A stretch of DNA of 64,000 bases from Tribonema minus (taxonomy: Eukaryota > Sar > Xanthophyceae > Tribonematales > Tribonemataceae). Location: NCBI GenBank assembly GCA_017506865.1, contig JAFCMP010000235.1:62001-126000 (forward strand), in the 5' to 3' direction. Under the pieces are notes generated by a model, which searched no databases, had not been told where the DNA came from, and worked only from the letters and a program-made list of their open reading frames with translations. The translations under genes and the position numbers were made by a program. Positions 9,001-63,300 of the stretch are shown here, in pieces (position 1 is the first letter of the stretch; every line of letters begins with the position of its first letter).

Positions 9001-12000
9001 GCATTTGAGACTGCGCAGCACTGCTGCTCCCGCCGCCGCCGCTGCCGCCGCCGCGGCCGTTGCCGCCGTTGCCGCCGCTGCTGCTGCCGGTGACGCTCCA
9101 GCCCTGGCAATGCAACAGACTGCCACACGGACCGGTTTATGTATCACCATCACCGCCCGATGCCTGCCACGCACTGCCCTGCCTGCAGGGAGAACAAGCT
9201 GTTCAGGAGCCGCGAGCTCGGGGCATACACCATCAAGTGAGTGGACAGTCCTTTCTCTCAACTTCAAGCCTTACCTCGACCCCAAACCTCACAAACGAGG
9301 TTGCACGCGCCGCTCCCATGCACTTCGTACACTTGCAGTAGCAATGCTTGAAGTAATGCGTAGCCGCCCTACCCTTCAACACGCGACCCATGGTGTGACC
9401 CCAGGCATTGTCGATGCAAGATGGAGTGTCGTGCACATTGTATGCGGCCAGGAACTGCTGAACTGAGACGCTTGCAATGCCCCCCTCTCATCCCCCCTCC
9501 CCCCCACCATGACCTGTTCCATGGCAATGGCCCACACCTGACTCACTTCGGAACTACGGGAGAATATCAGTTTGCAGTGCCCCCTCCCTCTTCACCTGTC
9601 CCGTGGCAGTAGCCCACATATACAGATATGAATTACTTGAGAATGCAAGTTGGGGGCTTCAACACGTTCAGTCAAGCATCAAGGTTCCGGAGGCCATCAC
9701 TGAATACAAAAACTCCAAATCATCAAAATCATGTGCTGGCAAAGTAACACCCCCCTTTGTGCTGCCCCTGCCCCCCCCCCCCCCCCCTTGTCAGCTGCCC
9801 CATGGGCTGCGCCCGCAGCTCGCTGCCGCCGGAGGCCTTTGAGCTCCTGGGCGCGGCGCTCGTGACGCAGTACCGCAGGTTCACGGCGCTAGACCTCGCG
9901 CAGGTGAGCAGGCCTCTATTCCTTCAAGTTGAAGTTGTGTGAGGCGTATTGTACTTCAGGACCGCAGGTTCACGACGCTGGACCTCGTGCAGGTGAGCGG
10001 GGGGACCCCCAAAAGTGACCTCAAGTTAAAGTTGTGTGAGGCGTGCCGTACTTCACAGCTCGCGCAGGTGAGCGGGCCCCCCAGGATTTGTTTGAGTTGG
10101 AGTTGTGTAAGGCGTACCGTACTTCAGTACCGCAGGTTCACGGTGCTGGACTTCGCGAAGGTGAGCGGGTACTTCAAGCTGAAGTTGTTTGAAAGGCGTG
10201 CCGTACTTCGCACCTCGCGCAGGTGAGCGGGCCCACCGGAGACCACCCCCCCCCTTCACTTCAAGTTGAAGTTGTGTGAGGCGTGCAGTATTTCAGTACT
10301 GCAGGTTCACAGCGCTGGACCTCGCGCAGGTGAGCGGGGGCCCCGAGACCCTCTGTCACTTCAAGCTGAAGTTGTGTTTGGAAACAGCGGTCGCTGCACT
10401 GCTGCTGCCGGCGTCCATGGGCAGCGCTCTTCAGGCGGAGGCAGTACATGAATATGCAATTTGCTGAAAGATGTAGTTCCAATTATAGTGACACGTAGGC
10501 AGCCGTGGCACAATCGCGATGGAGTGTCGCTGCTGTGCGCGAGTCGCACTGGTCTGACTCAGCTATGTGTTCGTTTTGCCCTTGTCAGTAAAGTAGGAGG
10601 TTACGACAACTAAAACCATGTCCACACGCGGCTTGCTCCTCTGCCGCTGCACAGCGCAGCGTGCTGCGCTGCTTCCTCTAGTATACCACGCCATCTAATG
10701 TGTATACGTATGCGGCGTGCTCCCCTGCTACTGACCTGTGCAGGACATGCACGTGCTGTGGTGCCCGTCCTGCGGCCAGGGCGTGCTGCCGGACCTGCCA
10801 GATGCACAGGTGACTCACTCTATGACTCGAGTACTCGTGCAGCATGAGTTGCTTGCTGGCCCGCCGGTTCCTCCGTCCTCAGAGCGCGCGGCGCACGCTC
10901 CAGTTCAGTGACTCGCTCTATGACGAGTACTCATGCAGCATGAGTCACTTGCTGGCGTGCCGGTTCCTCAGCCCTCAGAGCGCGAAGCGCACGCCCTGGT
11001 CAAGTGACTCACTCTGTCTCGAGTACTCATACAGCATGAGTCACTTGCTGGCCCGCCGGCTCTTCAGTGCTGAGAGCGCGCGGCGCACACCCCGGTTCAG
11101 TGACTCACTCTATGACTCGAGTACTCATGTAGCAGGAGTCAAGCCGCTCGCTACCGTGATCTCTTTCTGAAAGAAGAAAGCAGCACTTGTACGCACAGCA
11201 CCACATGGGGGCCAGAACCCGATCACCGCTGACTGCTCAGCATGGATGCACTTGACCTAGCGCCGCGTAGCCGGTCTCTGACACGCGTCTTGCAATGGCG
11301 CACCGCCGCGGACACCACCTGAGCACTGAAGACTGCTCGGCGCATGCTCAACTGACGCACAAAAAATACATACACCACTGCCTTTGCGCGCTCACACAGG
11401 CTGAGGGCGACGGCGACGCCGCTACCGCCGCCGCCGCCGCTGCCGCCGCTGCCGCCGCCGCTGCCGCCGCCGCTGCCGCCGCCGGCGGGCCCGGCGCGCC
11501 GCACATCGTGGAGTGCCTCGCGTGCGCGCAGCCCATCTGCACTGGCTGCTGCAGGTGCGGTGGCTGCAATTCGACACCTTGCTCGCTAATGCTGCGTAGG
11601 GGTAACGTCGCATCGGGAGTCGGAGTCGGAGTCTGACGCCGCTGAGCGATGAGGGTGGTTGCATGTGCAGTACCTGTCAAGACGGGCGGGGGGGGGGGGG
11701 GGGGGGGAGGCTGCGGCGCGAGTACGGCTTGATGTGCTCATGCCACGCCGCATGCGCTGATGCTGGGTAGGGGTAATGTCGCTTCGGAGTCGGAGTGGGA
11801 GTCTGCCGCCGCTATGCAACGAGCGGGTGGTTACATGATGGCAACGTGCCTGTGAAAACGGGGGGCGGGCTGCAATGGGAGCACGGCTCAATGTGCTCAC
11901 ACTATGTGCTGCAGAGTGCACGGTGTTCTTGAGCCTGCGCTGCGCGGCTGCATGCCTGTGTGTTGTAACAACCCACCCCCACTGGAGACAGATGTGATAG

Positions 12001-15000
12001 CAAGTGCTGCACGGCGCATTTGAAATTGCTAACATGGGCACAAAGCGCGGGTGCTGCGACGCAGATTGTCCCCTCCCCCCCCCAACCAATTGTACGTCTG
12101 ACCCGATGAAGTTTCAACATTGCAACTGACCATGAGCCTGTTGCGCACACACGCGCCTGCGCAGGTGCCACGGCTCAGACACGACCTGCGACGAGGCTGA
12201 GGAGGCGTCGTCGAGGGCCACGCCGGGCGACGGCAGCGCTCAGGTGCGGATCTTCAAGTTGAAGTGGCAGAAACTGAGCTGCGTGCGTGGCACTGTATGC
12301 GAGGTTGGACCTGCCTGCAGGCGTGCTGCGCTCAAAGGCGCAACAGTTTGTGTACACGAGTTCTGGTTTTTCTGTTTAGACTTGCTCGCATACCGGCCCT
12401 ACAGTATGCATGCGCTGTCGGAGGCGTGGCCGTAAAACGGTGTAGCAAAACCCCCGTCGGCATGCTCGCACTGAGAGTGAACTTCACCTGTCGGCAATTC
12501 GCGCTCTGTAGCCCTCTCTCTTGCGCTACGGTGCGCCGAGTCACCCCATCCCAGCCCCCATCCCCAGCGCTCGGGTTACAGACTGCTGCACCGCCAGCGG
12601 AAGTCCAGGGGGGATGTGCTTGCGCACCGCCATCAGCTGAACTCGTGATGGAATGTCATACTTCAAGTAGGCTGGACTGGGCCCGGCAGGTCGACGTGTA
12701 ACATTCATGCAACGATACAGCGCCCAGCAGCGAATCCTCCCGCCTTCAACCTGAAGGGCTGAAGAGAAGAGAAGCAGAATTCCATCCGCTCTCGGCTGAC
12801 CCCCCCCCACCCCCCTCCCCCACGCCCTTGTCCTCATAGCTCATCAAGGAGTCAACCAGGCCGTGCCCGCGCTGCAACGTGCCGATCTTCAAGGTGCGTC
12901 GCTCAGTGACTGCTCTACGCTGCTTGCAAGATACCGCTCTCTGAAGGGGATGATTGTGTGTGTGTGGCTCGCAATATGTGCCCCTGCCGTTGGCCTTCGG
13001 TATCGCACGCGCTGCTGCATCTGGTGAACGTGTGAGGAGACTGCGCTGTGATGGAGCCGGCAGGGCCTAGACACTAAAGCATCGTCACGCGCACGATCAT
13101 GGGGCGCGCACGCACCCTTGTGATTCAACCAGATTTCAACGCAGCTGCGGGCACTGTACCCATCCCCGTGCCTGCCGAACAAACATGCTGCGTTGCGCGC
13201 AAGAGCTGGTGTCCATGCACGCACAACGCGCTACAGACGCTGCGCCGCTTCACCTGTTGCCACGGACTCCTGCAAGACAGCGGGCGGCAAAACTTCAGCA
13301 CGTGCGCTGCTGAGGCTGTGCTCGATAACCTCAAGTTGCTCACCGCCCATCATCGCCATCGTCGCTGATGTTGCTGATAGTGCTCCTGTGTTGCCTACCA
13401 GATACGGGGCTCTGCTCGCGCTACGTGCCCTCGTATTGTTGGCCTGTGCCAGACAGCAAGTGATGGCACCACGCTGCTGCTTCCCTCAGTCTCTCCGCAA
13501 GAACTTCACAATCTATTTCATACGTGCGTTCCCCCTCTGAAGGACGGCGGCTGCAATCACGTGACGTGGCCGCGCTGCAGATGCTGCGCCGCTTCGCCTG
13601 CCGCCACGGATTTCGGAGGGCACCAAATTCAACACGTGCGCTGCTGCCGCTGCTCAATAACCTCGAGCTGCTCATCGCCCCATCGTCGCCGTCGTCGCTG
13701 ATGCTCATCGCCCCATCGTCGCCATCGTCGCTGGTGTTGCGCCCTCTGCAGGACGGCGGCTGCCATCACGTGACGTGCCCGCGCTGCACGCAAGACACCA
13801 ACATCAATACAATTGCTGCTGAGCTGCCGCTGCTTGACAACCTCAAGTTGCTCATCGCTCACCATCATTGCTGATGTTGCGCCCTCTGCAGGACGGCGGC
13901 TGCAATCACGTGACGTGCCCGCGCTGCACGTTCCAGTTCTGCTGGCTGCACCGCACGGAGTGGGTGGTCGGCGGGGCGTGTCAAAAGGCAAGTTGACGTG
14001 ACTCTCCTGTCCTGCTCTCCTTGCAACTCTGCGCCGTGGCGGCTCAGCCACTGACATCTGATCGAGCTGCCTGTAAACTACTGTAGTGCCTGCTGCAACA
14101 TGCTACAGTATCTCTGTGCAAGCTCCGTCAGATCAGATCGTCTAGCAGCATTCCAAGGGGAATGGTTGTGAGGGATGTGCTGCGTCACTTGTGCTGGTGG
14201 CGCAAATGGCCACTCGATGATTTCACACGCAGATGCTCAGGTCACGCGCCGCACTGCAGCGCACAAATGCCTCGTCTCGGTGGCCATCCCGCGCGTGGCA
14301 CCACACATGCAGTTGAACGCAACGGCGGCGGTTATTCACGCACCGCTGTAGCACATGTGCATGCAGACCGTCGAGGGTTTCTCCTGATGCGTACATGCGC
14401 CTGGCAGGACGACGCGCCCACTCGCTTCATGCCTAACGCCACCATATGGCGCCGCCGCCTTTGTCACACGCAACCAATCCTCGCACACTGTGGCACATAT
14501 GTTCATACGCTGCGCAGGCCGCTGCGGAATTTCCGCACTGCGGCAGGCGCATACCTCGCAATGGCAGAGCACCGCCTCCGCCTCACCACCTGCGACCAAT
14601 CCTCGCACACACATACTTGTACATGTATATGCGCATGCCGCACGGGTCGCAGCGGCACCGCCGAATCACCGCAGGCTGTATTCCACGCAGCGGCAGAGCA
14701 GCGTCGGCAGCAGCACGGCGACGCACGCGCGCCTGGGCGCACGCGCTGCCGCTGCCGCGCGATTCGCGGCAGCCGCCGTCTGCTCCCTCATCAACATATG
14801 ACAGACATATCAGTTTAGAAAGAAAAAAATGACACTGCGCCTGAGCCGTGCGGCAGCGCAGCGACTCCGTGCGGCGCTGCGCAGAGCGCCTGGCCCAGGC
14901 GCAGGTTTTGACATGACGCATGCGGCGCAGCGAGGGCAGAGAGCCTCTGAGCGCTGCTGCCGTGCACGGTGTCAGTGCTCAGCGCTGCCTCCCCCCCCTC

Positions 15001-17689: not shown

Positions 17690-20600
17690 TCAGAAGCGCG
17701 GCTCCACGAGCGCCTTGATGTTGAAGCGGTGCTTGTCGGACTCCGCCTTGGGCAGCGTCTGCGGCGGGCGCATGACCAGCTCCCACAGGAGTATCGCGCC
17801 AGCGCCGCCAATCAGCGGCCCGAACCAGAAGATGGCCATGGTGTCCCAGTTGCCGGTGACGAGCGCCGGTCCCCAGGAGCGCGCGGGGTTGATGCTGCAG
17901 CCGTCTGCGCAAGACATTGCACGAGTCATTGTGTGAGTCATTGTGTGAGTCATTGTGTGATGATTCATTAAGCGAGTCATCGTGCAAGTGCGTAAGTCAT
18001 CAAGCAAGAAAGTTGTGCAAGTCACTCAGTGAGTTGTTGTGTGCCTCATTGAGCGATTTACTGTGCAAGTCAGTAGCCGGTGACAAGGGCCGGTCCCCAG
18101 GAGCGCGCGGGGTTGATGCTGCAGCCGTCTGCGCGCGTCGGCGTGTGAGGCGTTGTGCGAGTCGTTGGGTGAGTCATAGTGTGAGTCATTGAGCGAGTCA
18201 CTGCAAGAGAGTGCGTGCGTCATCACGCGAGACGTTGTGCGAGTCATTGGTCGAGTCGTTTTGTGATGATTCATTGAGCGAGTCATTGTCAAGTGCTTGA
18301 GCAGCGAGAACATTGTGCAAGTCAGTCGGCGAACTGTTATGAGAGTGGTTGAACGAGTCACTGTGTGTGCATACCCACAGGAGGGTTCAAGTCATCCTGT
18401 ACGTCCTATTTTGTTGCTGATGAAGAAAAATGTATCGGGCTCAGGAGGTTGTCGCAAATCAGACGATTTTTGAATGCAAATGAGAGTAGCAGACAGCTGT
18501 CAGTCGTTGGTATGTTATCTAGCTCAGCCATAGGGCACCCACCCTTCTGTCCTTTTTGCAGAGAGGGCATGCCATACACACACACACCGTGTGCCCCATG
18601 GGCCTCATGATTGATGTACGGTAGTTGGTATGTTTTCCCGGATTTCGTTGCTAGTTTTGCTGCATTCAGCGTTTTGATCTGAGGCCAACTTTTTGTTGCC
18701 CATGTGTGCACACAATCATACATTCAAATCGATGTAGTCAACGCAGTTCGAAGGGCACGAAACATGAAGTGATAGGACAGAGTCACGCAATGATCCTGCG
18801 TTGCGTACACGCCACTGTCAAAACCGGGGCGCTTCCAACTGTACCAGTGGGTATGCGCACGCCATCTGGTCAGACAATCCGAACCGAACACTGCCGCACA
18901 CCGCGCAGCAACGTCGCACGCACCTATGGGAATCATGACGATGTGGCTGATGAAAACCGTCATTCCAACGACAAACGGCAAGTTGAAGTCCATCTGACGC
19001 GCGGCGAGACACGGGGCGGGGGAGAGGGCAAGAGGGTGTGTGTAGGGGGTATGTACAGGTATGTGGGCATGTAGGGACGGAACAGATGTCCTAGCGATGC
19101 TGCAGCTGTTCGCTGTTTGGCGTGCTTCCGCACGATGGTCACTGCTTGCGTGTCAGCCGCAGGAGTTTATACTGGTGCTGAAGAGGCTCACAGGCGCGAT
19201 CGCGGGGCGACACGTGCCCGTGCCGTGCCGGCAGCGTGAATCGTCAATATCGCAGAGCTCATGGCTGGAGCACCTTGCAGCAAAGTTGATGTTGGTGCTG
19301 AAGAGCTTTATGGGCGCGATCGCAGGGCGACACAACTGCGTGCCGTACCCGCCGTTCAAGTCATCGACACCGCGGAGCTCTTGAACATGGAGCTGTACAG
19401 CCAGCACGCTGTCGAAATCGACCACCAAGTAGCGTACGACCAGCCACATGTCCAGAGACGAGACATATTGGAGACCACAAGTGACAGGGCCTCTGCACGC
19501 GGAACATGCAGACCATGTACTACCGGAGTTTCGAATCGAATGGCACGTTGCGGTGGCCCGCTCGTACAAGACTGACGACAGTCCTCAACAGCAAATTTGA
19601 AGTACGCGCGCGGCGTCATCACTTGAAGTGACGCTCATCTCAGCTAGCGCGGCGCATGAGTCATCCGCACACTGGCAGGGCGCCGCTGAGGCCAAGAACA
19701 CAGGCAGAGCAAGAGCAAGTTGAAGTACACGCACCAGTGTCACCACTTGAAGTGACGCTCACCTTGGTGGGGTACATGAGCGTCCACAGGTCGCTGAGGC
19801 CACAGCAAGCCTGAGCAAGTTCAAGTTGAAGTGCAAAAACACAACATGAAGTGACGCTCACCTTGGTGGGGTACATGAGCGTCCACAGGTCGCCGCTGAG
19901 GCCCACCAGCACCGCAAGGCACAGCAGCATGGTGCACAGGAACTGCACGGCGGCAGCGCGCGGGGGGGGGGGGGCAAATGGGGTGTTGAAGTTATCGGCA
20001 GTTTAGGCGTACAGAGGCCAGGAGCCAGCGAGCGAGGGGCAGGAAGAAAGCCAAGAGCCAGGAACCAGCAATGAGGTAAGCGAGGGGGCAGGCAACAGTT
20101 CCCGTGCTCGCCGCTCACCTCCCTGAATGGCTCACACCCGGCAAAATGAGCATCATCGCTCGCGGTCCACGGGCAGCAGCGCGGATCGTCACCGCAATTG
20201 CACAAACCTCAACACAGCGGCGCGCGACTTCTGTCACTGGGGAGAGCGCCAGGCGCTCGGGGCGGCGCATCACGTTTCATGCACAGACTTCAATCTTGAA
20301 GTGGCAGAGCTCAGCATCCGTCCCATCCGCACCCGCCTCGTCACCTCACCAAAGAAGGTCTGCACTCGCGTCATGTTTAGTGCAGACGTCACAATGTTGA
20401 AGTGGCAGTGCTTAGCCCATGCGCAGCGGCAGCGCTCACCTCGCCGAAGGACGGCTGCGCGTGCGTCACGTTTTACACAAACTGCTGCGGTCACGTTTTA
20501 CACAAACCTCAATGTTGAAGTGGCAGTGCTCAGCCATCTGCGTCAGTGCTCACCTCGCCACAGAACGTCTGCGCGTCCGTCACGTCTCACGCATACTTCA

Positions 20601-23600
20601 ATGTTGAAGTGGCAGCGCTCACCTCGCCAAAGAACGTCTGCGCGTCCGTCACGCCCGTGGAGATGATGTTGACGCCGCCGCTGACCAGGTTGAAGCCGCT
20701 CTCGCCGGCGACGTTCCGCGCAAAGATCGTTCCCAGGGTCGCGCCGAAGCACTGCGGCGACGCGGGGGGGGGGGGGTGACGGCAAGCGCATGGCGGTGTT
20801 ACTTCAACTTGACTTTGAAGTTGAAGCCGCGTCGCCGGCGACGTTCCGCGCGAAGAGCGTTCCCAGGGTCGCGCCGAAGCACTGCAGCGCGGGGGGGGCG
20901 TGACGGCACGTGTGCTTGGGTGTTGCCTCAACTTGGTTTTGCAGCTACGAAAGTGATGGCACAGCGGTGACTTCAGGCTTACGTTGGTCGCTGCTGCTTC
21001 TGGATGCAGCGATGCACTTGAAGTTTTGGGGTACTTCCAGGTGGACGGCGCGCGTGGACGTTGCGTCAACTCGGTTTCGAAAATATGAAAGTGGTGGCAC
21101 AGCGGCAATTTCGGGGCATGCATTTGTCGCGCTGCTTCCGGATGCAGCGATGCAATTGAAGTTGGAGGTACTCAACAGGCGGCGCTTCTGGCAAAGACCG
21201 TGTGAAGCATCGTTCTGGAGCTCTACAGCGTAGAGGAAGGGTTGCAGTGCATGCTATTGAGATGAATGATCAGGGAGCCATGTGTATACTTTGACGTACC
21301 TGGACATAATAAAGCACTAGGTAGGTTGCCGTAAGGCTGGCTGGCAAAGGTCCACGAGCACAAGTCGTTCCAGGCCCCAACCCTGACCCTAACCCTAGAG
21401 ATGCCCGCCACCTGAGCTGCCCTCTGCGTTGGCAGTTACCAACGCTGCTGCTGCTGCCGCACAGGGGATTGGTGCTCGACTTCGACGACCAGCCGTCAAT
21501 AACCCTAACCCTAACCCTAACCCTAACCCTAACCCTAACCCTGTCTGCGAGCAATTGCACATCGGGGGGCACGTAGTGGCGTGGGAAGGAGATGCCCCTG
21601 CAGCGGCTGTCCTGCACCTCGCGCATTGTTGGACGCTACCCCCGTAATCCTTAACCTAAACTCCACCCTGACCTGACCATAGGCCGGACTCTACCTTTGA
21701 GCTGGCCCGAGCACTGCAACCGGGCGCTTAACTCTAACCCTAACCCTAACGCTCACCCTTCAAGTGAGCACTGCTTGGAGCGCTGCTGCGGAGCACTGCT
21801 GTGGGCACAAGTCGCCAGCTCCCCCCTCGCAAACGCACTCTAACGGGCGTGAACCGCTTGCGTACTGCGATCGCACTGTACATGTACTGTGTGTGTAATG
21901 CGCATGAACTGCGACAACTGAGCGCTGCCCCCGGCACCGCATCTCAGCCTCCAGAACAGTAAAGTTGGAGGCGAATCTGCAGTTAAAGCCCCCTGGGTAG
22001 GGGTTCGTCCGGTCAGTTCACTGAAGCCCTTCGCGGAAGAACACGAAACGCCGCCTCCCATAAGCACAGTGCTGCAGCGCACAGTCCCAAACTAGACGCT
22101 CATTCTCCCGCAAGTGTGCCATCCAGGCATACCTTACGCTTGCAATCTCAGTTGCAGTACATGTGCAATTCACGGACTTGTACTCGTGAAGGCTCAGAAG
22201 AGGCCACGTGCCCCGTTTGTGTTCTCAGGGTTCACATCCTACGCATGCACCAGCCTACATGACCTGCAATGTGCACTGCCGAGTGGACCCGTGCAAGAGC
22301 GCGCGCGCCGCCGCTGTTCTCTCTCACCTGAGCGATGATGTAGAGCACGCCCTGCAGCGCGGACATGCGCTTGCCGAGGACGAGCGCGAAGGTGACCGCG
22401 GGGTTGAGGTTGCCGCCGCTGCGCAGCGCTCAGCACACGAAGACACATACTTCAAGTGTGAACATACACTTCAGGTGTGATGTTGGGATGGACAGGGGTG
22501 AGCGGCGGCGCGTTTCATATGTGCAGCCTCCCAGCAGCGGGTAATACTAATATAATTAGATATATATGACGCGTGGGGTTAAGGGTTGCCGCCGCTGTGC
22601 AGCGCTCGGCACAGACAAGGGCATGACCTTCAACTTTAAAGATGGGACAGACAGGCGCGAGCAGTTGCGCGTTTCCCATGTGGCGTCTCGTGCGGAATCC
22701 AGCAGCGGGTACTGCTGATATATAAAGCGCGCTTGGCATGGACTTGTGCTCGCACGCCAGCATCGCTGAAGGTTTCACCGCAGGGTTTGAGCGCACTGCG
22801 GAGAGCCGCTAATCCTGTTCCTAACTTTCACTCTAACCCTAACCCTAACCCTAATCCTACGGCGAGCGCGTACAGTGTAGCAAGAGGGAGTGACCGCTGC
22901 GGAGGCGCGCGCGCGCAATGTGCAAGGGGAGCCAATGCGCGGCATGCAGCGGTATGGTTTAGAGCATCCGCCCCTCGTGAAAACCTCAGAGCACGAAGCT
23001 CCTGCTTCATCTGTGCGCACTGCTCGCGGGTGGGCAGCGAACTTAATGTGCTTATGAACACATGCACACGCCGCGCAGGCATTGAGGAGAGGCAATGCTC
23101 GGCGCAGAGGTACCCGAGCAGTGCACCGGGGGGGGGGTGGGGCGGGGGGGGAGGGGTCCAGCGGGGGCCACGGTCTGTGATGCAAGCTGCACGAGTACAT
23201 GGCAGTGACGCTAGTGTCTGTCGTGAGCCCTCGATGCCACCCTGGTTGTAGTCATACGTACATGCTATGACAACATGACTACTTTGTGAAGTATGTGGTC
23301 CAGGAGACAGCCGAGTGTGACGCGCGCCTGATGCCCGACGTGATGTATACGAGCACAAAGATGGAGAAGCCAAAGACAACGGCGATCATGCGCTCCTTGA
23401 TGCTGCTCTGGTCGTAGTCACACATACATATTGTGACAGCACCATGCTTTGGCCAGTTGACGATACTGCTTTTGAAGTACTTCGGGTATGTCGTCTAGAA
23501 GACAACCGACTGTAACGCGCACCTGATGCCCGACGTGATGTACACCAGCACGGAGATGGAGAAGCCAAAGACACAGGCAATGGTGAGCTCCTTGATGCCG

Positions 23601-24054
23601 CCCTGGTCGTAATCAAACCTACATACCAGTACTACTTTGAAGTACTTCAAGTATGTAGTCTAGGGACAACAATGTAACGCGCGCACCTGATGCCCGACGT
23701 GATATACACCAGCACAAAGATGGAGAAGCCAAAGACACAGGCAATGGTGAGCTCCTTGATGCCGCCCTGGTCGTAATCAAACCTACATACCAGTACTACT
23801 TTGAAGTACTTCAAGTATGTAGTCTAGGCGACAGCCGAATGTAACGCATACCTGATGCCTGACGTGATGTACACAAGAACAAAGATGGAGAAGCCAAAGA
23901 CGAAGGCGATGGTGAGCTCCTTGATGCCGCCCTGGTCGTAGCCGTTAGCGAGGCGCGTCGCGTTGTACGCGATGAGCGTGATGGTCAGGAAGAGGAAGAA
24001 CGTCATGCCGATGGCCTCCGTCGCGACGCCGCGCCACAGCGCCGCGTCGATTTG
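17690..24054 (-). CDS. Aquaporin (major intrinsic protein family channel)
   Basis: Exons in transcript order: 24054-23852, 22418-22328, 20751-20623, 19942-19862, 18993-18924, 17904-17690. All phases match and they total 789 nt (262 residues plus stop). A channel-type membrane protein passing water or small neutral solutes. Exon 1 carries two hydrophobic segments (TEAIGMTFFLFLTITLIAY; IAFVFGFSIFVLVYITSG). Exon 2 has the first half-helix motif SGGNLNPAVTF. Exon 3 is an atypical loop (FGATLGTIFARN, then NIISTGVTDAQTFFGE). Exons 4-5 hold two more membrane spans (FLCTMLLCLAVLVGL; VVGMTVFISHIVMI). Exon 6 has the second motif GCSINPARSWGPAL, whose Arg belongs to the selectivity filter, and the last span IFWFGPLIGGAGAILLW. 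The N-terminal exon with the start codon was not identified and may lie upstream of 24.05 kb, possibly beyond the hAT insertion. Substrate cannot be assigned. Confidence 0.88.
17918..18365. repeat. Degenerate GAGTCATTG tandem repeat with a truncated exon copy
   Basis: The intron before the last aquaporin exon is built from many short GTGAGTCATTGTGTGA-like units. At about 18070-18140 it contains a copy of the first ~60 nt of exon 17904-17690 (segment encoding DGCSINPARSWGPALVTG) with its acceptor. Confidence 0.75.
19140..19400. repeat. Two-copy ~120-bp intron repeat
   Basis: Blocks at about 19170-19262 and 19290-19385 share GGTGCTGAAGAG, GGCGCGATCGC, GGGCGACAC and GCCGTACC/GCCGTGCC segments. 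They lie upstream (in gene sense) of aquaporin exon 18993-18924. Confidence 0.6.
19655..19850 (-). repeat. Exon-end plus donor copies (aquaporin exon 19942-19862)
   Basis: The tail encoding DLWTLMYPTK and its GTGAGC donor recur at about 19760-19800, with a decayed version near 19630-19680. The intervening bases carry a CAAGTTCAAGTTGAAGTG motif. Confidence 0.7.
20330..20618 (-). repeat. Downstream array of exon ends (aquaporin exon 20751-20623)
   Basis: The exon tail encoding GVTDAQTFFGE with its donor is repeated at about 20545-20582, 20437-20472 and 20340-20375. Copies are joined by segments containing CTTCAATGTTGAAGTGGCAG. The complete exon is the upstream-most member in gene sense. Confidence 0.8.
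20825..20905 (-). repeat. Upstream copy of exon 5' end (aquaporin exon 20751-20623)
   Basis: The first ~60 nt of the exon (encoding CFGATLGTIFARNVAG) with its acceptor and the preceding C run are repeated here about 120 bp upstream in gene sense. After the copied stretch it passes into a TTGAAGTTGAAGTC-type sequence. Confidence 0.75.
21370..21545. repeat. Interstitial telomere-type repeat
   Basis: About seven CCCTAA units at 21500-21542, with degenerate copies at 21380-21395, in an aquaporin intron. Confidence 0.85.
22570..22615 (-). repeat. Upstream copy of NPA-exon acceptor
   Basis: The acceptor and first ~20 nt of exon 22418-22328 (TGCGCAG then CGGCGGCAACC) recur with small changes about 190 bp upstream in gene sense, with a shared AGCGCTCAGCACA-like flank. 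Confidence 0.55.
22830..22860. repeat. Interstitial telomere-type repeat
   Basis: Four to five CCCTAA units inside an aquaporin intron. Confidence 0.8.
23325..23800 (-). repeat. Downstream array of exon ends (aquaporin exon 24054-23852)
   Basis: Three copies of the last ~95 nt of the exon (encoding DQGGIKELTIAF to YITSGI) plus donor lie at about 23693-23790, 23522-23615 and 23325-23420, with a fainter remnant at 23230-23255. Period is about 170-195 bp. Units include a TTTGAAGTACTTCAAGTATG motif. Confidence 0.85.
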
Positions 24055-24139
24055 CTGCGGGGGCAGCGCAGGTGGTGGACCATGTGAGCGACTGTCAAGA
24101 TATCAGCCAAAATTGGCCAAAAAAGAGCCAGAAGATGGT

Positions 24140-24560
24140 CAGGAAGTGGAAGAATGTCAAGCCGATGGCCTCCGTCGCGACGCCATGCCACAGCGCCGCG
24201 TCAATTTGCTGCAGGGACAACATTGATGGTTGACTGTGTGTGACTATTGTCGAGATTGTCGGCAAATGTGGCACAAAAATAGGCTTGTCATGTGCGTTAT
24301 GGTCAGAACAAGGAAGAACGTCATGCCGATGGCCTCCGTCGCGATGCCGCGCCACAGCGCTAATTCAAGTGCTGCGGGAGCGGCATGGATTAATGACCGC
24401 GTTAGACAAAGTGTTGACGTTATCATCAACGCTGGCATGAAACGGAGCCAGAAACCAGGAGCCCAATGAGCGTGATGGTCAGAAACAGGAATAATGTCAT
24501 GCCGATGGCCAGGCTGAGATGCCGGACCGTAGCGCCGCGCCAACTTGCTGCACGGCCAAG
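24140..24560 (-). repeat. Upstream array of exon 5' ends (aquaporin exon 24054-23852)
   Basis: Three copies of the acceptor and first ~70 nt (encoding AALWRGVATEAIGMTFF) lie at about 24145-24215, 24305-24375 and 24475-24550, increasingly diverged with distance from the intact exon. Confidence 0.8.
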
Positions 24561-25111: not shown

Positions 25112-25152
25112 CTTCAACCCTAACCCTAACCCTAACCCTAACCCTAACCCTT
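25112..25152. repeat. Interstitial telomere-type repeat
   Basis: About six CCCTAA units roughly 75 bp upstream of the hAT transposon target site. Confidence 0.85.
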
Positions 25153-35806: not shown

Positions 35807-38800
35807 CTGGGATGCAATAGCGGCGCACTTGGCGGCGGCGGCATCGAGCAGCTGCGCGAGCTGGTCGCACAGGCGCGAGCGCACGGCCGCGAGCGCCGCC
35901 GCGCGCACGCGCGCGTCGCCGCGGATGACGTCGAGGCGGCGCCAGCACAGCACCGCCGTGTAGTGCAGTAGCCGCTTTGTCTGCGTGCGCAGAGGAAGGT
36001 GGGCAAACTCAGTGATTCTTCCAAATTTGACACTTGAGTTACAACACTTCAAAGCCGCCAGTGATACTAGAGGCGGCGCCAGCACAGCACGGCGGTGTAG
36101 TGCGGGAGCCGCTTCATCTACGCTCGCGGAAAGAAGGCCAACCGCACTGGAAAGAAGGCCAACCGCACTGCTGGACTTGCGATGCTTCAAGGCTTGATGA
36201 TGTGAAGCGCAACGCTCAGCATCATTGCTGCCCTCGTGGCGCTGGGTGGGAATCTACACCTTCAACTTGTGAACGCCGCCAGATGTGCCTGTGCGTGCAT
36301 TACGTTTTCGCGCAGTGCGCGCCGCCGCCGCGCCCAATACACACCCTGCTTACCCCGCCGCCGCAGGTGTGAATGAACTCGTGAGTGATGCTTGTGGTCA
36401 CGAAGCACGCGCACGCGCATCCAGAGTGTTGTTGTTCGTGTGCATGCGGCGCGCAGGTGCTGCAGCGAGCGATGCGCACAGTATGTGGCAGTTACGTGCT
36501 CGCAGTCATCTGCGCGCTCAACGGCTACGGCAGTTACACTTGCCGGTATACAGCGCACAATGCATTCACCTCTAGCAGCATACGACTGGCGCCGGTCGTC
36601 CGCCGCAATGGTCATCCTGACGTCTTCCGCGTGGTATGGGGCAACAGGCTAGTGAGCAGCAGCTCTCCACAATGTCACCGGTACGTACATAGGCACGAAC
36701 GCACCTGCATGACCACTGTGCGCCACACGCCGCGCTGCAGCTGCTCGGCGACTGCGCCACCCTGCATCACATCACAGCGCACCGCGCCGCTGTCAGTGCA
36801 TGCTACAGACGCTGCGTCGTCAGGATGAGAGCGAGCACATTTGAACTGATCAGGCGCAGAGCGCCCTGGCGCAGTAACATCAACCTCAACGTGGTCACCC
36901 TGCGTGCGCACCACACGAAGTCACACTGCGTCGAGGATTATGCTCAGTATGTGCTGACAAGCGGGACATCTGCCGCCGTCAGGGGTGAAAGCGATTGCAG
37001 CGAACCGAGCGAGCACAGCAGCTTCAACTTCAACTCGTTGACCGCGCCGCCCTGCACGGCGCACGGCACACACACCGCGCCGCATGATGCGTCAGTACCC
37101 ACAGGCGACATGGACTTTGTCACTGTCATGGGCAAGAGCGAGCGCAGCAAATCAGGCGGGGGCACAGAGAGCCTGATTTCAACTTCAACTTCAATGGGGA
37201 TGTCTGCGGTGCGCACGTCCGGCCGTGACGCTCCAGCTGCGGCACGCCGCGCGGACCAGCGCTCGGGGCTGCACGCGCGTGCGCTGCGCGGTCCCGAACG
37301 CCGCTGATGCGTTAGGCCTGGGCCGCCGGTGCACGCGCCGCGTGGACACACGTGTCGGCGCAGCGCGCGCTGGGGCACCGAGTGCAGCAGCCCCGTCCCG
37401 CATAGGGGGGGGGGGGGGGGGGGGGGCAGCAAAACTGGGGCGTCGCTGAGCGCTGCTGCATTTTTCGTGGGCACGTGTGCCGCTGAGCACATGAGCTGGT
37501 TCCAGCGACCGCGTGCGGCGTTGCGGTGGCCATCACGCACGTGAGTTGAAGTTTGGTGGCCACAGCTCAACTTGATCGGCGGTATCGAACTGTTCCAAGG
37601 GATTGCGGGCAGTCGCGGTGACATGTCAAACTTGAAGTTATGCTCACACGCACGCGCACGTCATGACAAACTTGATGTTGCGACCGCGTGCGGCGCTGCG
37701 GTGGCCATCACGCGCACAAGTTGAAGTTTGGTGGCCACAGCGCTCATCTCGATCGGCGGTACCCGAACTGTTCCGAGGGAGAGCGCGTGCGATCGTGACG
37801 GCGCGTCAAATTTGGGGGTACGCTCACACGCATACGCGGCCCGACATGACTGAATCAAACACCAGAATATGAGTGACGTTCATAGCAGTGACAAAAACAG
37901 AGTTGAAGTTGTGCTCACGTCGTCGCTGTGGAGGGCCGCGATGGCGAGCACGAGCCCCTCATGCCTCAGCTTCTCCAGGGCTTGCGCAAGGGCCGCCGCG
38001 TGTTCGTCGCCGGCGCCGCCCCTGCATTTGTGAATTCAGCGCCGCAGAAAAAAGAATTCATGGAATTCAGCGTAGCAGATGGTGATGACAAGCGACCAAT
38101 CGTGATCACAGCACGCCGGTCGCTCTGCCAGCTTCTTTGGTCCACCCGCGCCGGGGCTTAACATTTGTGGCGAATTGTCTGTTATGTTGAATACGCCTTC
38201 ACAGCACACACATCACTGACGTCAGGGACGTGTCGTGGGTGCTGCTGGCGCCGCGCTCTGCATTCACGATTCGACACCCCATGAATGAAGTCACCGTGAC
38301 AATTAATAAAATCATTCATGGCGAATGCACAAGTACATCCTGCCTCGTAGACTGCGTACTTCAAAAGCGCGCCGCGCAGCACCAACCGCTGGTGCTGCCC
38401 CACCGCTCAGCAGCTAAAACACGCGAGCATAAACAACTTTTGGAGCACGGGGGCCGTTCCGCGCTCATCGCCGCCGTTACGTCGACGGTCACGGCAGTTA
38501 CACTTGCCGATGGACACAGACCGCAACGCATTCGCCCCCAGCAGCAGCACCGCAAGTGGCGTCGGGCTTCAGCTGTCGTCAGCTTTGGTGATTGGTCCAG
38601 ACCTCAACACATATCAAATGGTGGCACTGTTTGACTCGTGGCCGATGACTGCAGCAGCGGCGACCACGGTCAGTTGTGGAAGGCCTTCGATCTGACGGCC
38701 AGCCACACCTTGTCACCTAAGTAGAGCTCTACGATCATTTGATCCGTCTTTTCACATCACCAGATGCGCAGTGCGCGAGTCGCGCGCTTCCGCGCAGTCG

Positions 38801-45984: not shown

Positions 45985-46017
<33 letters not shown>

Positions 46018-50790: not shown

Positions 50791-50821
<31 letters not shown>

Positions 50822-53800
50822 GCCCCCCCCCCCCCAGGAGTGGTACACGGCGACGGACAAGCCTGCGGGCGGGCGCAGCGCCTGCACAGTCGACTGGCAC
50901 GACGCGGAGGGCGGTTTCATGCGCTTCTCGGGGACTGTATCGGGCGTGATGGGGCGCACCATGGCGCGCTCCGGCTTCTGCGCAACGCGCTCTCCCAAGG
51001 TGAGGCATGCGTATGTCTGTCTTAACGTGAAATCACGTCGAATCAGCGCGCTTCCCGTACATCGGGAATGTCAAGTATTGTGTACGTCGGGGGTGATGGG
51101 AAGGACCATGGCGCGCTGCGGCTTCTGCGCAACGCGCTCTCCCAAGGTCAGGCCATGTGACATTAAAGTCGTCTTCGCACGATGACGTCGAATCGACGCG
51201 CTCCCGCGCGTCAGGAGTGTCAAGACATGTATACGTCGAGCTACACATGAATACTTCGGAAGCCACACACACGGCCTACTCTAATCCGAACCCTACCCCT
51301 ACTTTGAGGTACCTGCTTGTACCGTACACCATGCATGGTTTGAGCACCGGGGTGCATCTCCCATGCGGTGTCTTGAGGGCAACAAGCGTATTGGGGGGGC
51401 ACCTCGAGCGACGACGCAGCGCACTTTCTGCGCTGCGTGCGCGCTTTCTGCACTGCGCGTGCGCGTCGTCGCTCCTCAATCGCGGCAGGCGGGCGTCGCA
51501 CGCGACAGAAGCAAGTCGCCACAGAGCGTACCTACCTACCCACCGCTTCGTTGATGCAGGCGCTTGCTGCAGATTCCTGTGGTGCATGGAGGCCTGCACC
51601 AACAGCAGAGCCAAGAATGCCTTGATCGTGAAGTTGTCAGTTGACCCTCCTGTGCCCCTCCGCATCTGCTATCGCCAAGTGTCATAGTGCCTGCTTCCGC
51701 GTTATGTGTTGGAAATCTATCTGGCAGTGGAGGCAGGCCTGCGCAGCTGCGCTCGACAAGGGGCGGCTGGGATACTTCACATTTGAAGTACTTCAATCTG
51801 AATCATGAACCCCACTGTGATTTCGAACCGAAGTCGCTTGCACAATGCATCCAGGGGTGTCTGACAACTCCAACTGTACAGAATGCACGCACACGCAGAG
51901 CAGGAAAACACGATCCACAGTGACCCATGCGTCACCGCCTCCTTCACAACAACACTGACCGCGCCTGCCATCACTGCTCAGCAGTGGCAACCGTGTCAAT
52001 CTGAGTACGAGGCCCCCGCGCTCACTGTGCGCATGGACGGGCGCCACAATTTGTTAACGTGGCGCCGCAGAGACGTCCTGTAATACATATACAGCGAAAA
52101 ATCATCAGCATTGACAAGTACTTCTGGTAGCGGCTCTCTGTCATCCACCATCGCCGTCTCCTCCACACTACGCGCTCACCACGCCTGTTGTCACACTGTC
52201 ACTGCTCAGCGGTGGTGCGGCAATGCTTTGACAGAGCACGAGGGCCTCGCGCTCAAGGTGCAATCTTGAAGTCAAGGCACCTACTCTCTTAAAATGAACC
52301 ATGTGATGCAACACAGTCATGTGCATCTGCGCTTGCCCTTGCACCGGCGCTGACACCGCGCCCTGTCGTCACACTGCTCAGCGGTGGCGCGGCATCGACC
52401 TGACAGAGTTCGAGGGCCTCGTGCTCGCGCAAACTTGAACAAGGACAACACCGAGTTTTTCCACATGAAACATTTGATGCAACATAGCAATCTGCATCAA
52501 TGACCTTCTGCATAACAACGCTGTCGTCGCAGTGCTCAGCGGTGGCGCGGCGTCGATCTGACGGAGTACGAGGGCCTCGCGCTCACGGTACAAACTTCAA
52601 GTAAATATACCTACATGTCTTCAAGTGAATCATGTGATGCAACACAGTTTTCTGCGTCAATGACCTTCTTCACAACAATGCTGTCGTCACTCTGTCACTG
52701 CTCAGCGGTGGCGCGGCGTCGACCTGACGGAGTACGAGGGCCTCGCGCTCAAGGTGCGCACGGACGGGCGCCACTACGCCGTCAACATCGAGCCGCAGAC
52801 TTACTTCGACACGGACCTGTACCAGGGATACATCATCGCGCCCGCGGGGCTCTGGACGGTGGTGACGCTCCCTTTCGACGGCCTCATGCACACGTCGCGG
52901 GTGAGCGTCACATATGTTGAAGTAGTTGTTGACGTTGAATGCTCAGGAGCCGTTTGACGGCATCATGCACACGTCGCGGGTGAGCGTCGCATATGTTGAA
53001 GTAGGTGTTGAAGTTGGTACTAGAGAGGGGAGGTGGTGACGCTCCCGTTTGACGGCCTCATGCACACGTCGCGGGTAAGGAAGCGCGCAGCGTCGCACTT
53101 CTTAGTCTAGTTGTTGAAGCCGATAGCTTCGGAAGTCTTCTCTGACTTGACGAGTCTCTCATGCACACGTCGCGGGTGAGAGAGCGCGCAGCGTCACATA
53201 TGTTGAAGTAGTTGTTGAAGTGAATTGCTTGGGGCGGGGGCGGGGGGGGCTGCACCACGACGGCGCTTCCGCGCCCCGGCCTCATGCACACGTCGCGGGT
53301 GAGGAAGCGCGCCACGTCACTTATGTTGAAGTATTTGTTGAACGTCACATATGTTGAAGTATTTGTTGAAGTTTCTTGGGCTTGGGAGAGGGGCCATGGG
53401 CGGTGGTGAAGCGCCCTTTGAATGGCCTCATGCACACGTCGCGGGCGAGAGAGCGTGCAGCGTCACGAATGTCGAAGTACTTGTTGAAGGTGGTGCCATG
53501 GACGGTGGTGACGCTCCCTTTCGATGGCCTCATGCACACGTCGCGGGTGAGAGAGTGCGCAGCATCACATATGTTGCAGTGTTTGTTGAAGGCAGTACTA
53601 GCGCCATGGACAGAGGTGCCGCTCCCGTTCGACGGCCCGATGCGCACGTTGCAGGTGAGAGGCCCCGGCATCAGACTTGTTGAAATAATGGTTGAAGTTG
53701 ATAGCTTCGGAGTAAGACGCTGACAGAGGTGGCGCTCTGTTCAACAGCGTCATGCGCATGTCGCGCGCGACAGGCTGCAGCAGCGAACCGCTGATTCGAG

Positions 53801-57372: not shown

Positions 57373-60300
57373 TCACACGTGCGCCACCGTCAGCGCCATG
57401 TAGACGTCCTCCTGCTGCCGGCCGACCGCGCCGGCAGCGTTGCCTTCGTCGACGGCCATCGCATCGCCGTTTGCGGCAGGCGCAGGCGCCGCCGCGCCCG
57501 CCTGTGCCCAGGGCGTGTTCTCAGAACTGTTATCAGGACCGTTCTCAGCAACGATCAGCGCGTGTGCGACCACCGGAGCGCTGCCACCCTGCAGCGCGGC
57601 GTTTTGAGGCAGCGGCGACGGTGCCTTGGACGCCACAGCCGTCACTGCTGGCGCTGATCGTTGTGGCGGCGCTGCCGCTGCTGCCGCCGCCGCTGCTGCT
57701 GTCACTGCTGCTGCTGCTGTGACTGCTGCTGCTGATGATGGTGCTGCTGCTGATGACTGCGGTGGCGGGCGCAGCGGTGTCGCTGTTGCGGTCGTCGTGA
57801 TGGCGACCTCCACGGGCCCTGTCATCAACATAGCAAGTAGCACGCGTCAAAGCTTTCCGCCACACTAATCCCGAAGTTCTCTTAATGCTCCAGCTGCTTC
57901 AATTGCCCAAGCACCAGCTTTGAAATGTTTGTCTCGATTTTCACAGCAACAGCAGTAACCCCTCCTTGTCATGTGGTTTGTGCATCAGCGTCAAGTTGTT
58001 TTTTCAGGTGTCAGCTCATGCTTGGAGGGACTTTCTTCTGCAGCACCTTCACAGCGCACGATTGACTGAGCTGACGTCGAGGTCAGCCACACTAATCTCA
58101 CAGCTCTCTTGATGCTCCAGCTGCTTGTGAATGGCCTGAGCTGCCTGTGACTGAAAAACTAATCAAAAGATTGCAGAGCTCTAGGTGACAAGGGATGGTT
58201 AGCCGCAAGTGCCTGCCACCAATAACCGTGGTCGCCGCTGCTGCAGTCATTGGCCACGAGTCAAACAGTGCCACCATATCCACAGTAGGCAAAAATACTT
58301 CTGTGTGCAAGATTTTTAGCGTTAATGGCACGAGCGTCCTGTGCATGGCTTGATGATGTGTTTACAGTACACACACCTTCCTTCACCTTCCGTGTCACAA
58401 ACGAGCGTAACGCGGCAGCATGCGCGCCACTCCTTGCTTGGCTCAGACTGGCAAAACTGGACACACACGCGCTGCAACAGAGCACCAGGTGATGGCATCG
58501 CACACGATTGCGGCTGACGAGGCAAACCATACACAACTCGCCTGCACACTTGCATCCCATTACAGTGTCAGTGATGGTCTGGTTCTCTGCTTGCATGCAC
58601 GTGAAGTATGTACGCACCTTCATCTTCCGTGTCACTGTCTGCTGCGTCGAAATCATTATCCAGATCGTCGAATTCGACGATGAACTCCCCTGCCCCCTCG
58701 CGAAGCATGTAGTCTGCGGCATCCTGAGCTGTGAAGGGGCCAAAAGTCGGGCCCGGGCACTGGCCCAGGCGTCGCCGGTTGAACTTGAGGTACAGCCGCG
58801 CCTCGACCTGGAAGTAGCAAGAAGAGACGTTCCATAGGTGCGTGTCTCAGAAATCGCCACTTCATGCATGTTCCTCAGCAGTTGCTACAGCGTTTCAGAA
58901 GCCGCAGCTAAGAAGAAGCAGTGCCGCGCAGGCAACGGCACCTGCCGCTAACCCTAACCCTAACCCTAACCCTAACAACGCTGCGGCAGAAACATCAGCG
59001 CCAGCACGACTAGCGGTGCGCAGGCGGGCGGCGGCGCGTGCTTCGCCTGCGCATTGCCGTTAGGGTTAGGGTTATGGCTCGCGCACATTGCGTCATCCGT
59101 GGAATCACATCAACGTCTAATCGCGCGGGGGGGGGGGGGGGGGGGGCGATGTGACCAGACGCTGACACTGAACTGCTCCGAAACATGTGTGCATGGACCA
59201 ATCATCCGACCCGACGCAGTGTCAATGCAAACACGGACCCGCATACAGCAGCGACCGCGCTGACATCCGCCCCCACCACAATACTCTGACCTGTGCATCG
59301 ACCAATCATCTGATGTATCCCACACGGGAAAAACGGCCTTCACACAGCAGCGGCGGCACCAACAACTATGCACGGACCAATCATCTGATGCATCCTACAC
59401 GGACAAAACGGGCCTGCAGCACACGGCAGCAGCAGCGACAGCGCCCCTATCCGCCGGCGGCGCGCCGCTCGGCGGTGGCGGCGCCGCGGCGGTCGCCTCT
59501 GACACTGAACTACCCTGAAATAATGTCATATACTCCGAAGTATAGTGTACTTCTATATGGCATATGTCCATCATCTGACGCATTTCACATGGACAGAACG
59601 GGCCCGCAGCACACGGCAGCGGTGGCGGAGGCACCGATCTCCGCCGGCGGCGCACCGCGCGGCAGAAGCGGCTGCGCGGACGCCACCTCTGAAACTGAAC
59701 TACCCTGACATTTATGTCACATATGGGAACGAATCAAGAGAGCGTAGAGCTCTAGGTGACAAGGTGTGGTCAGCCGCAAATGCCTTCCACCACTGACCGT
59801 GGTCGCCGCTGCTGCGGCAATCAGCCACGAGTCAAAGAGTGCCACCATATCCACAGTAGTCGAAAGACATCTGCGTGCAAGCTTTTCAGCGTTCAAGGCG
59901 GCACCCACCTCCGCCGCAGGCGCGACGCGCACTGGCGGCGGCTGCGCGGCGGCCGCCTCTGAAAGTGAACTGTCCTGAAATGTATGTCACTTGGGTAGAT
60001 TATATTGTACGTATGTATGACACATGTCCATACGGCCATCTGCATCTGCATTCCACACTGACAAAACTGGGCAGCAGCGGCGGCACCCACCTCCGCCGGC
60101 GGCGCGCCGCGCGGCGGCGGCGGCGCCGCGGCCGCCGCCGCCTCCGCGCAGCGCGCCGCGGCGCCCGCGGCGCACCCCTTGCTGGTGACGCTCGCGCCTA
60201 TCGCGCGCAGCAGCGGCCAGCGCGCCGCCGCCGCGCCCGCAGGGTGCCACCAGAGGTGCGGCGGCGTCGCGGGGTCGCGCGTGATGGCGGCGCCGGCGAA

Positions 60301-63300
60301 CTGCAGGAAGTGCGCCAGCTGCGCCTGAGGGGGGGGTGGTGGGGGGGGGGGGGGTGTGGGGGGGTGGGGGGGGGGTGAGAGGGGGGTTGGGAGGGGGGGG
60401 CAGTTGGGGGGGTGAGAGGGGGAGGTGCGGCGGCGTCGCGGGGTCGCGCGTGATGGCGGCGCCGGCGTACTGCAGGAAGTGCGCCAGCTGCGCCTGGAGA
60501 GGGGGAATTGGAATGTGAGAGGGGGGGTGAGGGGGGGGGGTTGGGGTGGTGAGGGGGCGGGAAGCGCGTCAGCGGCGCCTGAGGGGGTGTGGGGGGGGGT
60601 GAGGGGGCAGGTGGGGTGAGAGAGGGGAGGGGGGTTGGGGGGTGAGAGGGGGCGAGGGATGGTTTGTCATGGCATGTGCGCGTCACGCTGCCAAGTTCTT
60701 CAGAGTAGATGTATCAGTAGTGCGTGCAAGTAGATGAAGGCGCACACAGCATCACGCCTCCAGCGCGCTTGCGTCGTGAGGGGGGCTTCGTTTGCGTGGG
60801 ACTGGCGGCAGCGGCGCCAACGGCCGGCAGGAGCGTCGCCAGAACGCACCTGCGTGCAAATTCAACACTCAGAGCGCTCACTTATGTCAACAAGGTGCTG
60901 TGCGGGCACGTAAAACGGAGCCTAGTCCTAACCCTAACCCTACCCCTAACCCTAAATCTAACCTTGATCGAACCCTCAACCCTCGACCTAACGCTAGCCT
61001 CAATCCCAACCCTGACAGTGCTACTTCAGGGGACGGCAAAGCAACTGCATGTGCAGCGCAGACACACACTGCGCGCGCCGCCCAGCCGCCTCGTGCTGCC
61101 ATGACCCGTACTGCCAAACCCCATGCTTCATCCGCAAGACTGCCCGAGGACACTTCAGCGAACACTACTTCTGTCAGCGAGCGCCGCGACAGGCAGATGC
61201 ACACCTGCAGCACGCTTGCGGCGGCGCTGGCGGCGGCGCTGCTGCCGCCGGGCAGGTCAGCGATCTCGGAGCGGCGCGCCGCGAACGTCTGCGCCTCCTG
61301 AGCGATGCTGACGCCGAAGAACGCGCCCAGCGCCGTGTCGGCGACGGCGTGGTGCACGGGGTCGAGCGCGTACGCCGCCGCATAGAGCGGGTGGTACAGC
61401 TGCGGCGGCGGCAGCAGCAGCGGCAGCGACAGTGCGGACCAGCGGTGAGCGGCGAGGAGGAGGGGAAAGCGGCGGCGGCGTCAGGCGTGAGATGCGTGAT
61501 CAGATTGGGCGTGACGCAGCGCGTTGCCGGCACTGAAGTGCGTGCGCGTATGCCGCCGCGTAGAGCGGGTGGTACAGCTGCGGCGGCGGCGGCGCCGGCA
61601 CGCGTGCGTGCGTCACGGCTCAGAGACAGCGTCAAACGTGTGAGCGCAGTGATGTGGTGCTTGCGCAACACAGGGTCAGGCACTGCGCCAGCCTGTTTGA
61701 GGCGGCAGCGCGGCTGTGGTACAGCTGAGGCGGCAGCGCGGCTGTGGTACAGCTGCGGCGTCGGCGGCAGCGGCAGCGGCGGCGCGGACCAGCGGTGCGC
61801 GGCGAGGGCATGCACGGCGCGCGGTGCCCGGGGGGGGGGAAGCGGCAGCGCCGTCGGGCATGAGACGCGCGATCAGATTCAGCGTGGTGTGGCGCCGTGT
61901 GACGCTGCGCCGCAGCGGAGTCAGAACGTAGGGTCAACCGCCACGCCGCGTACGAGAGAGGACAGCGCGGCAGGCAAACGGCGCAGTCGGCGGCGTCGGC
62001 TGTTTAGTAGTGCGGGCAGAGACGAGATCGGGGTTGCATCCATGTCTCTTGGCAGATCTGAAAAAAACATGTACTGATTAGTTTGTGGCACTGAAAAGCA
62101 GCCAGTCACAGGAGTAGCAGTGGCGGTGCCAATCACAGCAGCGAGCTACAAATTTGCTCCTTTGGACCCCCTTTTCCACACTGTGGCAAGCAACGCTCTC
62201 AAAAGTGCAACAACTGCAAGGACTGTGTGCAAGCACCCTGTAGCCAACACTACAGAAAGTACACCCTGCGCCTGCGCCATGCGCAGAATAACATGTGACT
62301 GCAGCATTAGGCACGTGCAAGCAAACTACGTTTCAGGCAAATGCGGTGCAAAAACACACGCAATCACCCGAGCCGCCGCGCGCTCACCTCGCGCGCGCGC
62401 CGCCGGCACGCCGCCAGCAGCGGCGCAGCCGCCGCCGCCGCCCCCGCCGCGGCGCCCACCGCCGCGCTCATCTCGAGGCACGCCGGCAGCAGCCGGTGCG
62501 CGCGCACGCCGCCGCCGTCGAGCGCCCTGACGAGCCGTGCCACCGGCTCAGCAACGCTCAGGTAGCGGCCGGCGCGCGCCCACCAGGCGTCGGTGAGTGC
62601 GCGCGAGCGCAGCGCACCGGCGGCGGCGGCGTGCGGGCCGGCGGCGGCGGCGGCGGCGGCGGGGGAGGCCAGCGCCGCGGCAACGGCGGGCCGCTGCCGC
62701 ACGAGCTGCAGGACCTGCGGGGGGGGGGGGTGTTCGTGGGGGGTGAGGGGGGGGGGGGGTAGGCACGTGTGCGCTGGGCCGGGATGCCTCGTTGAAGTTG
62801 GCGATTGTGTGACAATACAACCGCAGCGGCGGGGGCAACGAGGATTGTTATCAGGGGGGCGGGGGGGGAAGGGGCAAGTGTAGCCTCTGGACGTGCTCAA
62901 CACCACGCTCTCCCGTGTCAAAGCAACTGTTGGTGCGTCCGCTCTGCGACACGTGAAGTGCCCCATACCGGCCGATGGCAGCATGCCAAAGCTGCAGGAG
63001 ATGCGCGCAGCGCGCTGTGGCGACAATGGCGCTTGCGCACGCCCAAGCGGCGCAGCGCCGCGAGGCATGGCCGGCCCGTGGCGCGACGCAACGCCGCAGC
63101 AGCGCTAAACTGCGCGCTGGCCGGCGCCGCAACGCCTGTGAAGCGGCAGCGGTGTGTCAAGCTGGTTCTCCTGCCGATTCTGAGGCAGCAGCAGCACTCA
63201 TCTTGCCGTGCAGCTGCGCACTCTGATGCACGCATCAGAAATGGCGCAAAGCACGCCGTCCGCTGCTGCGCGCAGCGCTGCTGCGCCGTGGCGGCGCAGC

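Follow-up and report, generated by a model that had tools for sequence, protein, structure and literature searches.

The window analysed here is the 64,000-nucleotide stretch 62001-126000 of contig C235 in the Tribonema minus (Xanthophyceae) assembly G000 (158.18 Mb, 554 contigs), and it carries genes whose internal exons are bordered by tandem, truncated copies of themselves. One of these is a gene at 17.7-24.1 kb on the minus strand, for which membership of the MIP (aquaporin) family was confirmed by Pfam. The exons and arrays of this gene are as follows:

23852..24054, minus strand: intact aquaporin exon at which two arrays meet, matching residues 43-113 of the protein P0001 at 96% and MIP by Pfam
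24134-24223, 24295-24378, 24465-24551 (span 24134..24551), minus strand: three acceptor-type copies of exon 23852-24054, protein identity 73, 71 and 62%, DNA identity 84, 84 and 79%
23689-23775, 23525-23611, 23330-23416 (span 23330..23775), minus strand: three donor-type copies of exon 23852-24054, protein identity 97, 93 and 83%, DNA identity 90, 88 and 85%
20828..20884, minus strand: acceptor-type copy of aquaporin exon 20623-20751
20266..20653, minus strand: donor-side array of aquaporin exon 20623-20751
19586..19903, minus strand: donor-side array of aquaporin exon 19862-19942
17847..18365, minus strand: acceptor-side array of aquaporin exon 17708-17904, with a copy at 18076-18129

P0001 is a transcript-derived protein (EukProt, TRINITY assembly) that was 99% identical to the spliced aquaporin model. 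Its comparison with the window matched exon 23852-24054 completely, and three further matches upstream covered only the start of this exon and three downstream only its end, with the protein identity of the copies dropping outward on both sides. The segment of this exon occurs once in P0001, an indication that the copies are spliced out. The zeaxanthin epoxidase model (L021+L022), located on the same contig some 7-18 kb ahead of the window, was 100% identical to the T. minus protein P0121, which holds each exon once, as does P0001. Among the 120 matches listed for the aquaporin, the sole one named Tribonema minus was P0002, a paralogue at 52% identity, and the aquaporin gene of the window may be missing from the annotation. 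Telomere-like TTAGGG arrays are interspersed in the window, at 21500-21542 (in an aquaporin intron), 25116-25151, 28782-29251 and 58948-58976.

The exon survey covered 314 kb, composed of the window and 250 kb of further loci, in which internal exons were called by a small self-trained ab initio gene finder and 113 were kept at a coding score of at least 8. Same-strand truncated matches with a score of at least 50 and no more than 1.5 kb from the exon were taken as copies. Forty-one of the 113 exons had such copies, 95 altogether, compared with 0, 1, 0 and 0 hits in four shifted-pairing control runs and one inverted hit, which confirmed the reality of the pattern. Exon ends on the downstream side made up 52 of these copies and exon starts on the upstream side 34; the rest were 5 whole exons, 3 interior pieces and 1 exon end upstream. 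The whole copies arose where the gene finder had taken three truncated copies for exons, and locus L009 holds the sole wrong-polarity copy together with two interior ones; wrong-polarity and whole-exon copies, which the original prediction had named as evidence against itself if they proved equally numerous, amounted to one and to five mis-called cases among the 95. The three mis-called exons were excluded, as were L009 and L028, which carry long bacterial-type open reading frames, L032, which was read as a retroelement, and its neighbour L033 (one exon), which was dropped untested. In the remaining 84 exons, 86 of 87 copies had the predicted polarity, acceptor type upstream and donor type downstream, and reached the junction, the other being interior. 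Among the excluded loci, L028 (C400:1-10000, on a 16 kb contig) has overlapping long reading frames of bacterial type, glycosyltransferase-like and amidotransferase-like by eye, and is probably bacterial contamination; L009 (C1:1-10000, at a contig start) has a GC content of 0.71, long reading frames on both strands and Cys/His-rich repeats, and differs from the other loci.

Donor-side arrays were present at 26 of the 84 exons, acceptor-side arrays at 22, either at 35 and both at 13, and 13 or more both-sided exons are expected by chance with p 0.0014. The exon boundaries used here rest on ab initio calls, and at L011:3500 a better donor seems by eye to lie about 20 nucleotides (nt) inside the called exon. 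Junction arrays were found on five contigs; 39 of the 48 come from contig C235, so the sample is not random for the genome. Their distribution between genes was uneven, with arrays at 2/2 confident exons of L011, 2/2 of L018, 4/5 of L021 and 5/8 of L024, and none at the confident exons of L013 (2), L020 (7), L025 (2), L026 (3) and L027 (2). Local tandem duplicates cover 13.8% of the 314 kb, satellite locus included, a figure that, like the other coverage and 7-mer frequency figures for the full 314 kb, includes loci excluded later. One locus, L029 (C112:300001-310000), is satellite-like, with local duplicates over 69% of its length.

The polarity had been taken as the sign of a special process, a claim that is not supported. 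When a tandem duplication breaks once within an exon and once within the neighbouring intron, a single complete exon is left and the extra unit comes to lie on the intron side; this is geometry. The arrangement of acceptor copies upstream and donor copies downstream follows from it and does not discriminate between mechanisms.

The position of the arrays relative to splice junctions is more informative, and it was examined in 39 curated introns of eight genes, assigned by Pfam to MIP aquaporin, tRNA-synt_1, PC_rep, FAD_binding_3/zeaxanthin epoxidase, ParcG, UPF0029, CIA30 and Kelch. The gene names ValRS, Rpn1 and IMPACT are those that we presume for members of this set; a protein record supports two of the eight gene models, and the rest depend on Pfam matches and on the families we take them to represent. 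Thirty-one of the 39 introns carry an array, a proportion that is not a genome frequency because the genes were hand-picked from the fetched loci after arrays had been seen there and the array-free aquaporin paralogues were left out. The junction was crossed, by at least 12 nt, in 33 of 40 arrays (20 donor, 13 acceptor); seven crossed neither, four of these lying no more than 10 nt from a junction. Uniform placement of units predicts a junction fraction of 0.20. Simulations combined uniform duplication with a selection filter, protected exons, neutral decay, indels and deletions, and their output was passed through the same BLAST detection. They gave neutral fractions of 0.265, 0.339, 0.414, 0.295, 0.435, 0.672, 0.287 and 0.469 in eight settings, and the one-sided binomial p of 33/40 was 6e-12, 5e-7, 4e-6 and 0.025 against four of these (0.295, 0.435, 0.469 and 0.672, respectively). 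The exon part of the junction arrays had a median of 50 nt, exceeded 90 nt in one of 48 and fell short of the intron part in 44, compared with simulated medians of 68-81, upper quartiles of 100-114 and upper deciles of 112-126. When arrays were detected without reference to exons, 20 of 30 adjoined a splice site, as against 4.15 expected for whole arrays placed at random. The general, repeated process of local tandem duplication that had been proposed is supported, as one whose products preferentially come to lie over splice junctions, by its occurrence on five contigs and by 33 of 40 arrays lying over junctions, against 0.27-0.67 in simulation.

We consider it quite probable that these arrays are splice-junction minisatellites of the kind called mirages in amphioxus, arising by tandem duplication that straddles the junction, with spare units that are ignored and decay. 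To judge from the repeat structure, a stretch of typically 140-200 nt over a splice junction, about 50 nt of exon and 100 nt of intron, would be duplicated in tandem. The protein would stay intact when the full exon remains once and the extra units lie on the intron side, a geometry that would set acceptor copies upstream and donor copies downstream. The spliceosome would still use the exon-proximal site, as the protein records indicate for two genes. The spare units would then decay and the selected exon would remain the template for new ones, and such persistence of the template would make older copies tend to lie farther out, as they are observed to do. Junction-straddling segments may be duplicated, or retained, more often than intron-internal ones, as the position of the units suggests.

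Mirages are described, in PMC3087553 and PMC3902484, as tandem repeats over exon-intron boundaries, 5' and 3', of amphioxus genes; Adh3 and the globins BflGb6 and BflGb9 are given in the former, and TnC and PGBD5 were added in the latter. The units are 150-160 bp long in the globins, splicing is reported to be undisturbed, and many copies retain AG/GT; a copy number that is unstable between haplotypes or somatically counts as a further mark of mirages. The original prediction that no such system had been described was therefore not borne out. The Tribonema arrays likewise span the exon-intron boundary (33 of the 40 curated cases) and affect both boundaries. P0001 and P0121, which are protein records and not RNA reads, hold each exon once, an indirect pointer towards undisturbed splicing. 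Unlike the mirages, they occur in a stramenopile alga and not a cephalochordate, at 35 of 84 exons, and their copies are mostly diverged. PMC3087553 also cites short within-gene duplications able to include splice sites, and the gain of introns through tandem genomic duplication (Rogers 1989). In Tribonema, as distinct from the former, the duplications were not seen to have produced a new intron or exon. The likeness to Rogers-type gain lies in tandem duplication around splice-like AG/GT, and the difference in that the aquaporin introns are common to array-free paralogues. Intron gain by tandem genomic duplication has reportedly also occurred in the potato RdRp. Introners are repeated intron sequences dispersed in many genes; repeated intron sequence is found in both systems, but in Tribonema the matches listed for two searched exons do not extend beyond the locus of the exon itself.

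Local tandem duplication of the ordinary sort, spread uniformly along genes, could produce a similar picture if exon-internal duplications are purged while those in introns and across junctions survive. Junction duplications would then seem more frequent than they are, since the exon beside them is preserved as a reference and cannot be deleted. Several observations speak for it and weigh against targeting to junctions. Local tandem duplicates cover the 13.8% of the sample given above, and 50 of 103 arrays had no confident exon beside them. The simulation with heavy deletion reached 0.672, but with a mean intron of 543 nt against 939 observed. The exon-blind duplicate coverage had no peak at intron ends: it was flat near donors, at 0.25-0.33 across the 250 nt that follow them, and lowest beside acceptors, where it began at 0.18 and climbed to 0.45 by 300 nt. 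The better preservation of exons as a reference may therefore account for some of the junction excess; around ab initio exons, coverage near junctions was only about 1.5 times that at 600-1000 nt. The whole-array random null behind the 4.15 expected is too strict for junction-crossing units. In 22 of the 48 junction arrays the alignment ends no more than 60 nt into the intron despite 79-98% identity, an outcome that simple tandem duplication would give only if intron indels turn over fast, and P0001 and P0121 bear only indirectly on the splicing of the arrays. On the other hand, the observed 33/40 compares with 0.27-0.47 in seven of the eight settings, and exon parts of at most 90 nt in 47 of 48 arrays, below the intron part in 44, are at odds with the simulated upper deciles. 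We regard uniform duplication as a distinct possibility that falls clearly below an even chance; duplication targeted to, or kept at, splice junctions rather than within introns is likely and supported, but not proven.

The copies themselves decay without detectable protein-level selection. In 87 copies, exon-copy differences at codon positions 1, 2 and 3 were 97/1470, 123/1478 and 228/1483 (0.066, 0.083 and 0.154), and aligned intron differed at 313/1974 (0.159), a codon-position pattern that fits free decay of the copies together with exon change mainly at third positions. Of the 20 arrays that hold at least two copies, 16 had a nearest copy closer in sequence to the exon than their farthest one (p 0.012), and the decay with distance that had been predicted is thus upheld. 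Spanning copies kept GT in 32/39 and AG in 28/30 cases, which speaks for selected decoys regulating splicing, and AG identity per base (58/60) was slightly above that of the copied exon (765/896). GT identity per base (71/78, 0.910) equalled that of the copied exon (1053/1154, 0.912), however, and codon positions 1 and 2 changed about equally. The proposal of selected decoys is not supported, since the copies look neutral and the copied GT decays as the copied exon does, and we hold it very unlikely.

A remnant of intron gain, in which introns are born by tandem duplication of an exon with a proto-splice site, had also been suggested; it would agree with the AG or GT sites of the copies, and is the model put forward from the amphioxus mirages in PMC3087553. 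The T. minus paralogue P0002 matches loci L025 and L027, where five introns of the common part are at the places of the window gene (tblastn, 1-2 residue resolution), no outward series of truncated copies was found by tblastn with P0002, and local duplicate coverage was 0.00 and 0.01, respectively. The match of P0002 to the whole genome has no bearing on copies, as it leaves out the known copies of the window gene too. The aquaporin introns therefore pre-date the arrays, which are younger and strongly gene-dependent. This evidence, which concerns the aquaporin, leaves the suggestion unsupported, and we consider it very improbable. An introner-like mobile element inserting at junctions with long target-site duplications is very improbable as well. 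Two exons were searched in the 158 Mb of the one assembly; the listed matches all lay at their own locus, with no second haplotype among them, and no unit sequence common to different genes was noticed by eye. Such an element would fit a 7-mer, ACTTCAA/TTGAAGT, that is commoner 6-60 nt after array-bearing donors (14/26, against 10/58 without arrays), but far from exons (more than 600 nt) its duplicate cover is about background (0.09 against 0.07).

This 7-mer is about 8-fold over-represented in the 314 kb and densest 0-50 nt after donors, with examples in the window at 9922-9935, 20595-20610 and 53314-53370, and close convergent pairs numbered 8 against 0.47 expected, duplicated units included. 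Its association with arrays is the best of 66 frequent 7-mers, with a one-sided p of 0.0009 that becomes about 0.06 on correction. As the sole driver of duplication it was rejected on the cover far from exons given above. No obvious microhomology or motif at the breakpoints was seen on inspection of the alignments by eye. We see somewhat less than an even chance that short tandem duplication has DNA-level hotspots at the splice junctions of this alga. A segment of about -50 to +110 around the splice site would be duplicated at a higher rate than the intron beside it, perhaps aided by a small ACTTCAA/TTGAAGT inverted repeat just inside the intron. If true, gene structure would imprint where mutations happen.

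Arrays had been claimed in six genes of the window. They were found in five of these regions (RBR, aquaporin, 35.8 kb, CIA30 and hAT-derived), and TALE was not reproduced: the TALE region at 24.6-34.5 kb gave one pair only at a score of at least 50 (32816-32883 / 32920-32986, 81%), adjoining no confirmable exon. The CIA30 name was confirmed by Pfam, whereas no Pfam family matched the TALE and hAT fragments that were tried. The remaining arrays of the window are listed below:

9868..10377, plus strand: donor-side array of exon 9819-9903, called RBR in the original prediction
10807..11141, plus strand: tandem array of period about 96, the first unit starting by eye at a probable donor GT
13227..13930, minus strand: arrays on both sides of exon 13662-13745, which has a low coding score
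35525..35863, minus strand: donor-side array of exon 35807-35980
36070..36130, minus strand: acceptor-type copy of exon 35807-35980
50940..51238, plus strand: end of CIA30 exon 50838-50999 and donor-type copy
51928..52799, plus strand: acceptor-side array of CIA30 exon 52706-52900, four copies
52846..53711, plus strand: donor-side array of CIA30 exon 52706-52900, six copies
61363..61593, minus strand: start of exon 61205-61399 and acceptor-type copy 61541-61593 (92%), earlier called hAT-derived

The window also has an inverted duplicate, 180-506 / 2751-3077, with 84% identity over 327 nt and a similar reading frame in both arms (CDPYTPGAYYAL...).

The literature searched yielded no description of arrays like these from Tribonema or any other alga, as judged by titles and the starts of abstracts, with most subscription journals outside the coverage. 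What our results suggest as new is the distant lineage, the high density and the evidence that junctions are duplication-prone. What had been reported from a few genes of amphioxus proves common among the sampled genes of an unrelated lineage, and the sample is large enough to ask why duplications gather at exon edges. The arrays lengthen introns and can mislead gene prediction, as they did in this study. They also supply spare splice sites, from which later exons or introns could arise.

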